IMG/VR virus record: IMGVR_UViG_3300032579_000084
Location: 1-20,991 of that record
Source of the DNA: a virus
Reading direction: 5' to 3' (one strand)
Length of the DNA stretch: 20,991 nt
Part shown: in pieces, positions 15,793 to 17,644 of the stretch
How the letters are laid out: each line of letters opens with the position of its first letter
Numbering within the stretch: the stretch's first letter is position 1
Translations under genes and position numbers: made by a program
The notes under the pieces: generated by a model
Told to the model about the DNA's origin: nothing
What the model saw: only the letters and a program-made list of their open reading frames with translations
Databases searched by the model: none

Positions 15793-16101
15793 CTATTTAA
15801 TTAAACGACCATACACATCTTCCTGCTTCCAGTAGCCCTTAGCGGCGTGCCAGTCACAGTATTGTTGATAAACACCGTCTTGCGTGTTTCTGATTAGCTC
15901 ATTAACCCAAGGCATAAGATTGCCACTAGAAACGCCATACACTTCTTGGGCAAACATAGCGAACGGCGGCAGTCCTGCTAACCTTGTCCAATCCACTTGT
16001 GGTGCGGATTTTGGTTTTATCTCGTCAGCGGGTGTGGTAAAGGCATTAAATCCTTGCACGCCTGCAATTTGCGCAGGCGGCTTTTCTGTTTGGGTGGTCA
16101 T
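15793..16101 (-). CDS. Hypothetical phage protein, 102 aa
   Basis: The start at ATG 16101 has a strong AAGGAG Shine-Dalgarno and sits in an ATGA overlap with the HNH gene stop. The first ~40 residues are Pro/Ala-rich and probably flexible (PAQIAGVQGFNAF). The rest is a compact Trp/Tyr-rich helical domain (VDWTRLAGLPPFAMFAQEVYG, then QDGVYQQYCDWHAAKGYWKQEDVYG). It contains a single cysteine and no transmembrane segment. It lies before the LamG protein, so a small structural, assembly or chaperone role is possible. The family is not recognised. The strong ribosome site suggests this gene was part of the original operon and the HNH gene was inserted in front of it. Confidence 0.75.
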   Translation of the reverse strand: MTTQTEKPPAQIAGVQGFNAFTTPADEIKPKSAPQVDWTRLAGLPPFAMFAQEVYGVSSGNLMPWVNELIRNTQDGVYQQYCDWHAAKGYWKQEDVYGRLIK

Positions 16102-16769
16102 GTAAGCTCCTTAATTTTTTGAGAAACTAAAGTTAATTCGTCTTTGGTGAGCGATGACAACATATCAATCACCTTATCAACCATACGGACGCCATGCGGG
16201 TCTTTTTTGCTTGTACCTACGCCAGTCCATAATTCTAGGTTTTCAGGGCGGTTATCTTGTCGGTTGCCATTTTTATGATGGACGCGCTCGTGACGCTCTA
16301 GGGGTCTGCCAAGAATACTTGCCATGACAAGCCTATGCTCAAGTACCTTTTTGCCGTCTTTGCGTATCACCAAATATCCGCTACTACTAACCGTTTTATC
16401 GCCAATCACTCTATGCTCTAAAGTGATTTCGGGCTTTTTCATTCCTTCTGCTCTTGCTTTATTGGAACAAGTTTTAGAACAGTATGCTTGAGCCTTGCCG
16501 TGAGGTCTTTGAAATTCAGTTTTACAATAAGCACAAATTACTGTTTTATCCTTGCTTATGCCTTTGTTTTTACAAGCGACTGAACAATACTTCTGCTGTG
16601 CATACTTTGCTTTAAACTCATTGCCACAACATTCACACAATTTGTTTTTATTCCTTGTTGTTGAATACCAACATTCTTTAGAACAATAGGTTTGCTCAAC
16701 TCTTTTAGGTCTGAAAACAACATTGCAGTTTTTACAAGCCACATCTGGCAAGTGTCTTAAAGCAGTCAT
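16098..16769 (-). CDS. Zinc-finger HNH homing-type endonuclease, 223 aa
   Basis: The N-terminal ~110 residues hold four treble-clef-like zinc modules, each a C-x2-C followed ~12-15 residues later by a YCS-x2-C pair (CKNCNVVFRPKRVEQTYCSKEC; CECCGNEF...YCSVAC; CAYCKTEF...YCSKTC and related). The C-terminal half carries an HNH_3-type core at residues ~145-185: EHRLVMASILGRPL, then ERVHHKNGNRQDNRPENLELW. The catalytic His pair, the Asn-rich loop and the N-L-E-L-W ending are intact. Such enzymes nick or cut DNA at intron- or gene-free alleles. The gene lies just downstream of a group I intron-split gene but outside the intron, and has its own promoter (16802-16832) and a weak AAGAG ribosome site. 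It overlaps the next gene by ATGA. This is a mobile gene that looks intact. Confidence 0.9.
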   Translation of the reverse strand: MTALRHLPDVACKNCNVVFRPKRVEQTYCSKECWYSTTRNKNKLCECCGNEFKAKYAQQKYCSVACKNKGISKDKTVICAYCKTEFQRPHGKAQAYCSKTCSNKARAEGMKKPEITLEHRVIGDKTVSSSGYLVIRKDGKKVLEHRLVMASILGRPLERHERVHHKNGNRQDNRPENLELWTGVGTSKKDPHGVRMVDKVIDMLSSLTKDELTLVSQKIKELT

Positions 16770-16801
16770 AACAATACTCTTATTGGTTTGAAGGGAATAT
16801 T

Positions 16802-16832
16802 ATTATAGCATAGCAACATGGGAATATGACAA
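16802..16832 (-). promoter_or_regulatory. Sigma70-type promoter for the HNH gene
   Basis: On the minus strand a perfect TATAAT (16807..16802) is preceded by TGC, giving an extended -10 (TGCTATAAT). A TTGTCA -35 candidate lies 19 bp upstream (16832..16827). The -10 is 32 bp before the HNH start codon. The 19-bp spacer is long, but the extended -10 compensates. No comparable promoter was seen before other genes in this window. Confidence 0.6.
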
Positions 16833-16865
16833 ATAACTTACGCTAATTTTATAACGTAAGTTATT
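16832..16865 (-). terminator. Inverted repeat just after exon 2, possible terminator
   Basis: An 11-bp perfect inverted repeat (AATAACTTACG / CGTAAGTTATT) with a 12-nt AT-rich loop lies 9 bp past the stop of the intron-split gene. On the minus strand it is followed by TGTCATATT, not a clean T-run, so termination may be weak; it could equally stabilise the 3' end of the spliced mRNA. It ends where the HNH promoter begins. Confidence 0.45.
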
Positions 16866-16874
16866 GATTTTAAA

Positions 16875-17644
16875 CTAAACTTTGAAAATCTTGTTAGTTC
16901 CGTTGTCCCAAGTAACAATAATCATTATCATTCGCAAGTAGTCGCTAATTACTTACCGCCCTTTCGGACTGCTTATGCTTTCACATAAGATTAGACTATA
17001 TCTTCACCTCACATTGTGAGGGCTTTGCACTTCCACTCGCTTGAGTGTACGCCTTGCGGCTAGTCGTTGAAGTTTCACCTGTACGGTGCTTACCTGCTGA
17101 TTGCCCAATCCTTTATCTTTTCAAACATTCACGCTTACGCTTTCGGGTTACGTTGTAGTGGTAAAGGCTCTAAGGGTGTTCCAGCAATTCACAAAGTTTT
17201 CGGTGACCATATTGTTAATCACCGCCATTCGGAGTGATTGGTCAATTAAGCTAGTTGATAGCTTGTGTTCCGAATAGATTTACACATCGCTGTGTAAAGG
17301 CTCGCCAATAAGCCAGTCGCGGTATCAATCCAAGCAATAAGCGGGCTTGTGCTTTCTGTACCCGTATCTTTATAGATGACAATTGCCTCAATACTTGCAC
17401 CGCTTACCGAGGTAAAAGTACAGTCTGCAGCGTCAGCTGCGCCGCCTGCGGTTGATTTTGCGGTAAGCGTTACGGGTGCAGTGACGCGGGCGGATGATGA
17501 AATGTCAGACAGGAACTTATGTGTTGCAGTCTGCACAGTGTAGTTGCCTGTATCGACCAAAATACATTTCATTGTATCGGTCTGCCAGTTGATTTGCGCT
17601 TCCAAGAGCATTTGGCGCGCGTTGTCAAACAATGTATTAGCCAT
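16875..17644 (-). CDS. Phage structural protein gene split by a group I intron (spliced product ~130 aa)
   Basis: Exon 1 is 17644..17310 (111 codons plus 2 bases), starting MANTLFDNAR with GAGG 8 nt upstream of ATG. Exon 2 is 16932..16875 (58 nt). Joining TT|A gives a continuous frame that ends VTWDNGTNKIFKV and TAG. Exon 1 has the recognisable plan of a small phage virion protein: MKCILVDTG near residue 25, a FLSDI segment near 44, Ser/Thr/Ala-rich strands, AIVIYKDTGT near 88, and SPLIAWIDTATG near 100. In that family the chain continues a few residues to a W-(D/N)-x-G-x-x-(K/R)-I-F-(K/R)-(L/V) ending, exactly what exon 2 supplies. Without splicing, translation runs into the intron and stops at 17246 after ~20 unrelated residues. 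The role in the virion is not known; it follows the head adaptor gene. Confidence 0.88.
16933..17309 (-). ncRNA. Group I intron (IA-like), ~377 nt, no internal ORF
   Basis: All hallmarks can be read on the minus strand. P1: exon 1 end GGCUU (17314..17310) pairs with GAGCC (17303..17299), placing a U-G wobble at the 5' splice site. P2: TTTACACA-GCGA-TGTGTAAA (17298..17279), a perfect 8-bp stem with a GNRA loop. P3: CTTTGTGA (17196..17189) with GTGCAAAG (17030..17023). P4: TGCTG (17186..17182) with CAGCA (17099..17095), inside the P and Q elements. R element: TTCAACGACTA (17071..17061). S element: GAAGATATAGTC (17005..16994). P7 is GACTA/TAGTC. Extra stems P7.1 (17060..17051) and P7.2 (17047..17034) point to subgroup IA, as in the T4 td intron. 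P8 (17021..17007) and P9 (16989..16972) are perfect hairpins. The terminal G is best placed at 16933, which restores the frame; 16945 is a less likely in-frame alternative. Confidence 0.93.

Follow-up and report, generated by a model that had tools for sequence, protein, structure and literature searches.

Collaborative homing, of which few cases have been documented, is exemplified by the psbA intron of cyanophage S-PM2 and the endonuclease F-CphI (PMC6083498; reviewed in PMC3984707), where an ORF-less intron in a conserved gene adjoins a free-standing endonuclease gene. The window analysed here, the whole 20,991-nt stretch of viral DNA taken from IMG/VR record IMGVR_UViG_3300032579_000084, presents the same arrangement, with an ORF-less group I intron beside a free-standing endonuclease gene. 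It differs from S-PM2 in that the enzyme is a zinc-finger protein of the HNH family rather than of the Endo VII type, the host gene is a tail-tip gene and cleavage is a prediction; furthermore, the HNH gene is also found without the intron and the intron without the HNH gene, and an additional mini-insert is present. In intronless homing of the SegF type (PMC6083498), as in this gene, the endonuclease genes lie between conserved genes and are imported together with the end of the adjacent gene (here in the relatives L102 and L085; relatives are designated by locus numbers throughout), whereas the presumed target in the window is interrupted by an intron. The terminase intron of phage ICP1 with its T5orf172 homing endonuclease gene (PMC10448857) is a further parallel, since that gene too is located beside, and not inside, an intron of a structural gene; however, its nuclease is of another family and no mini-insert has been reported there. 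For ICP1, turnover of an intron-internal endonuclease gene has been proposed (PMC10448857).

The nearest known counterparts of the mini-insert are the tiny degenerate group I introns of fungi and engineered trans-excision ribozymes. The former occur in the rRNA of Phialophora and in lichen fungi, measure 56-81 nt, and in the small Phialophora type include P7 and a pairing with the 3' exon among their features (PMC3160393). The mini-insert resembles them in possessing P1 and P10, in having lost most of the core and in its length, which at 67 nt in the window and 49-51 nt in relatives corresponds to the 50-80 nt taken as typical of the Phialophora type; it differs in residing in a phage protein gene, in carrying a P2 with a GNRA loop and in always being accompanied by a full intron that lacks P2. 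The group I core of trans-excision ribozymes and spliceozymes (PMC4094466) excises a short internal stretch that does not belong to the core, as we infer here, but the present case would be natural, would operate in cis and would have its guide sequence within the excised segment. Our preferred reading, to which we assign a probability of about 0.6, is that the tail-tip gene harbours a three-part mobile unit composed of a homing HNH endonuclease, a collaborating main intron, and a mini-insert that is excised by the core of its neighbour.

The host gene, its exons and the main intron

The gene order in the window (major capsid, adaptor, host gene, PHROG 11163) is similar to that of phage F116 and its relatives. 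The host gene belongs to PHROG 644 (E 2e-37), and the profile of its relatives matches chain Ra of PDB entry 9d93 (E 3e-20), which is Bxb1 gp31, the 'tail wing arm' in a solved tail tip; fold comparison again returned Bxb1 gp31 as the first match. In nearly all relatives the gene is uninterrupted, comprises approximately 135 codons and ends in IDTATGLPITPNGGDIIVTWDNGTNKIFKV, and some 130 intron-less relatives encode ...GLPITPNGGDIIVTWDNG.... Where no HNH gene is present, the PHROG 11163 gene follows the host gene directly or almost directly. The host gene also has three plasmid relatives, the Acinetobacter one being an intact gene without an HNH gene. F116-like phages have a CsrA-like gene that overlaps with the host-gene start (L004:3814-4020, F116p47), and a CsrA-like reading frame also precedes the host gene in L085.

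Profiles and the intron-less relatives place exon 1 at 17310-17644 on the minus strand, ending in ...ACTGGCTT, and exon 2 at 16875-16922 on the same strand (IIVTWDNGTNKIFKV, followed by TAG). The first-pass annotation had drawn a single intron from GGCTT|A, a boundary that had to be abandoned because the stretch from 17309 includes a 25-nt coding exon. The supposed intron contains the codons for PITPNGGD (17241-17218), and there are therefore two inserts, one of 67 nt (17309-17243) and one of 295 nt (17217-16923). The mini-exon between them, E1b (ACCAATCACTCCGAATGGCGGTGAT; 17218-17242, minus strand), encodes (L)PITPNGGD and matches the relatives residue for residue. GGCTT| delimits the mini-insert and is separate from the main intron. 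Across E1b and E2, the lineages that bear the mini-insert differ from one another at 10-15 synonymous positions per ~15 sites and at only 0-2 nonsynonymous positions per 54 sites (12 and 0 for the window against L039, 15 and 0 against L166), L039 and L054 being near-copies in this comparison. These codon differences indicate strong purifying selection on both E1b and E2 and, since nearly all of them are synonymous, that both are translated. An in-frame stop is found within the mini-insert in every lineage, so that, with E1b translated, the mini-insert must leave the message.

The main intron (16923-17217, minus strand) contains a group I core recognised by Rfam model RF00028 on the minus strand (75 bits against a cut-off of 50, E 1e-17); Rfam reports it as a single group I intron of the window, at 17319-16972. 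Its 5' splice site is GGTGAT|TAAC and its 3' splice site AATG|ATTATT. P1b, formed by GGTGAT and GTCACC, has six pairs with a terminal U.G, P10b comprises 8 bp with exon 2, the omega-G is located at 16923, and P2 is absent. The corresponding intron-less junction reads GGNGAY|ATHATHGTNACNTGG, and the site is fixed by L084, which has the second insert alone, exactly at GGGGAT|ATTATC. Comparison with the relatives bears out these pairings: P1b forms six of six pairs ending in U.G in seven introns, including that of the window, and the guide follows synonymous change in the exon (GGTGAT with GTCACC; GGGGAT with GTCCCC or GTTCCC). P10b has 5-8 contiguous pairs with the intron's own exon 2; matched against exon 2 of relatives, most introns give fewer. 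The main intron is predicted to self-splice. It contains no ORF of at least 60 aa, in agreement with the first-pass annotation, the 132-aa ORF in this area being exon 1 read on into the insert, and no ORF remnant was found in the seven introns of the window type that were read. No intron-bearing copy was found among 369 genomes of the class, and one (L166) among 348 genomes of the family.

In an unspliced message, the reading frame runs on into the insert and, in four of seven types, reaches its stop after LAA, LAA, VAA or LAV (L084:3545-3571; the mini-inserts of L147, L149 and L166; the 5' end of the L154 intron; L028:4379-4429). These ends resemble the ssrA degradation tag, while those of the window and L039 end in LA and that of L030 in KDH. 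In a post hoc comparison, 0.27% of random frames had ssrA-like ends, and none was seen in 12 other, related phage introns or their upstream reading frames. Such ends could, as a post hoc suggestion, clear proteins made from unspliced message.

The mini-insert and the core of its neighbour

The mini-insert (17243-17309, minus strand) has the borders U|...G|, with its boundaries derived from intron-less relatives. It folds into P1a, in which GGCUU (17314-17310) pairs with GAGCC (17303-17299), followed by a P2 hairpin with a GCGA loop (17298-17279), and a 5-bp P10a may form between 17309-17305 and 17241-17237. A P1 with U.G, an omega-G and a P10, as expected of group I introns, can thus be recognised, the support for P10a being moderate; P3-P9 are missing, and besides P1a and P2 only a weak 3' hairpin is folded. 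Homologues of 49-51 nt are present in L039, L054, L147, L149 and L166, and in these, as in the window, the main intron always adjoins. A pattern that accepts whatever U|...G| insert occupies this position recovered four contigs from 2.9 million, all of them already known from the intron search. The mini-inserts fall into three sequence types with the same fold, namely P1a and then directly a GNRA-capped P2, whose loops are GCGA, GCGA and GUAA and whose stems differ. P1a is invariant. P10a rests on two types, pairing AUUGG with CCAAU in the window and L039, and UCGGU with ACCGA in L147, L149 and L166; shuffled loops reach five pairs in ~2% of cases per type, and the window's loop pairs equally well with E1b of 8 of 51 relatives.

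The main introns beside a mini-insert are all devoid of a P2 of their own, whereas the sole intron of the same type without a mini-insert, that of L084, retains it. Indeed, the spacing from P1b to the P4 marker is 11-12 nt in all six introns accompanied by a mini-insert, as against 33 nt, with a P2 hairpin, in L084. When L084 is aligned with L147 and L166 on the 5' side, two blocks of difference are apparent: the mini-insert gained and a 21-nt P2 missing. The succession of P1 and, at once, a GNRA-capped P2 recurs in L084 and, on visual inspection, in two introns of this class from Pseudomonas phages (L172 and L182). The most economical interpretation is that the P1-P2 domain on which the core depends is now located in the mini-insert. 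We would put at even odds the fuller proposal that a natural group I ribozyme excises both its own intron and a core-less mini-intron 25 nt upstream holding the relocated P1-P2 domain, so that a 25-nt exon would nest between its P2 and P3. No natural precedent for a single core acting on two introns was found, and our literature search, in which few subscription journals were covered, returned no paper describing phage group I introns that lack a core, or degron tails encoded by an intron.

Other accounts of the mini-insert appear weaker. That it splices alone, in the manner of the degenerate introns of Phialophora rRNA and without the core of its neighbour, would accord with its size range and its P1 and P10, but it occurs only beside the main intron, and beside exactly those introns that lack P2; we therefore regard autonomous splicing as unlikely. 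Far more improbable is a single large intron extending from GGCTT| to exon 2, as first annotated, or a dead truncated gene: Rfam does place P1 and P2 on the mini-insert, yet the strong purifying selection on E1b and E2 opposes both versions. The direct joining of GGCTT to ATTATT was rejected, as it shifts the frame and loses PITPNGGD, which is kept in all close relatives. We attach marginally less weight still to ribosomal bypass of the mini-insert, the mechanism of T4 gene 60: although a length of ~50 nt and hairpins in the gap would be in keeping with this, the P10 complementarity would be superfluous to it. Bypass with matched take-off and landing codons was discarded, since TGA precedes the resumption codon CCN in all lineages and no landing codon therefore matches the take-off codon.

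The HNH gene and its association with the intron

The HNH gene (16098-16769, minus strand) is free-standing and intact, and encodes a predicted endonuclease of 223 aa, as supported by PF13392 (3.5e-10), PHROG 1271 (2.7e-27) and a model. Its N-terminal half is rich in cysteine, with zinc-finger-like units, and an HNH_3 domain occupies residues 145-182; the PF13392 match is above the cut-off and the HNH residues are invariant in 14 relatives. No PDB relative was identified by sequence or fold, nor any NCBIfam model. The first-pass annotation correctly described an intact gene beginning 105 nt beyond exon 2, and a stop stitched through ATGA (16101-16098) to the start of the next phage gene, PHROG 11163 (15793-16101, minus strand). 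The extended -10 that it reported (TGCTATAAT, 16810-16802, minus strand) can be read by eye upstream of the HNH gene, although it is not listed by the stock promoter scan, which gave nothing above chance; L030 has TGATATAAT at the same place. An 11-bp inverted repeat (16832-16865, with arms at 16832-16842 and 16855-16865) lies between exon 2 and the HNH promoter and has no T run.

The tree of HNH proteins, which is poorly resolved, contains a group A (window, L030, L031, L084 and L154) and a group B (L039, L054 and L147), both of which are found beside introns, with intron-less members elsewhere in the tree. N-terminal modules have been exchanged among the HNH genes of L039, L055, L070 and L147; the N-termini are zinc-finger-like in the window's group and helix-turn-helix-like in others, with an HNH core common to both, and a C-terminal part, KDPHG.R..D, is often common across the module types. 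The HNH gene of L070 carries an in-frame stop in the region of the HNH motif and is a decaying copy.

Among the loci ascertained by exon 1, four possess both elements, none the intron only, seven the HNH gene only and 110 neither (p 3.9e-5), so that the HNH gene is present in 4 of 4 loci with the intron and in 7 of 117 without it; the p value becomes 0.005 if the four intron loci are counted as two lineages. With all queries combined and identical exon 1 sequences removed, the counts are eight, two, 12 and 86, respectively, a sample biased by how the loci were found. A broad match to the window's HNH protein recovered eight loci, all with the HNH gene just downstream of the host gene. The two elements are associated, but the proposition that they are always gained together fails on the 12 relatives with the HNH gene alone and on L149 and L166, in which the mini-insert and intron are present without an HNH gene: joint gain is not obligatory. 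L030 (4360-4654), L031 and L154 carry another type of group I intron, located 2 nt further on (GACAT|..G|C) and next to a member of the window's HNH family; the P1 of this intron type was identified by eye, and only L154 scores above the Rfam cut-off. In L149 (reverse strand, 2455-1774), a single gene tail accommodates the mini-insert together with two group I introns, of which the second lies at NG|TNK. Yet another position, the third intron site, is occupied in L028 (4379-4720; TGGGAT|AATGG), where the downstream region has no HNH gene.

Comparison of L039 with L054 points to joint movement. Their identity is 70-77% over the last 220 nt of exon 1, before the unit; within it, identity is 100% for the mini-insert and E1b, 95% for the intron, 94% for exon 2 and 84% for the HNH gene, and it drops to 62% after the HNH gene. 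Such high identity between diverged flanks therefore suggests that the whole unit moved. Furthermore, GC3 of the tail minus that of the body is -0.11 in genes with the HNH gene and +0.09 in those without (p 3e-6, with loci treated as unrelated), and in L102 and L085, which are GC-rich, intron-less and HNH-bearing, the synonymous positions turn to AT 10-25 nt before the intron site and up to the HNH gene. This composition indicates that HNH-bearing genes carry an imported tail that begins near the intron site, and the conversion footprint in L102 and L085 would accordingly place the break there. Taken together, association, co-transfer and footprint fit an HNH enzyme whose target would be the intron-less gene, close to where the intron sits. 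The collaborative homing put forward in the first-pass annotation is thus supported comparatively, with the reservation that gain is not always joint.

The proposed homing mechanism, rival explanations and significance

In the mechanism that we propose, the free-standing HNH endonuclease would cut within the last 60-70 nt of the host gene, near the codons GGD|IIVTW, and the main intron, being located in that stretch, would remove the cut site from its own genome. Repair of the break would carry the main intron along, which constitutes collaborative homing. The mini-insert 25 nt upstream would represent a degenerate second group I intron that kept the substrate half, consisting of P1, a GNRA-looped P2, P10 and the terminal G, and the P3-P9 core of the downstream intron, its own P2 lost, would most likely excise both inserts. 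One ribozyme would in this way join three exons: E1 (...GGCUU), E1b (25 nt) and E2.

A less probable explanation is that the free-standing HNH endonuclease homes to the gene tail on its own (intronless homing), and that introns land in this tail independently, because its codons are highly conserved, and merely hitch-hike. The 12 relatives with an HNH gene and no intron in the same slot, the two with an intron and no HNH gene, and the hotspot character of the tail, with at least three intron sites, are all in line with this; it sits poorly with the association in exon-ascertained loci and with the joint transfer in L039 and L054. It is doubtful, and more so than hitch-hiking, that the intron once encoded an endonuclease of its own, since lost, with the free-standing one taking its place, in which case the pair would not reflect collaboration evolved as such. 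Related introns do adjoin different HNH types: the window has type A and L039, L054 and L147 type B, yet their mini-inserts and introns are related, from which it follows that intron and enzyme have been reshuffled. Nevertheless, the seven introns of the window type lack any ORF remnant, and no relative with an HNH gene inside an intron of this type was found. Our preference accordingly remains with a mobile unit in which the HNH gene and the main intron collaborate.

The host gene displays, side by side, copies with neither element, with the HNH gene only, with both and with the intron only, as well as two intron types and two HNH groups. With so many natural states in one gene, the proposed path to mobile introns becomes testable. 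If the shared-core reading is true, the mini-insert would count as a naturally occurring, non-autonomous group I intron, and would parallel the step from self-splicing introns to introns that use a shared catalytic core.
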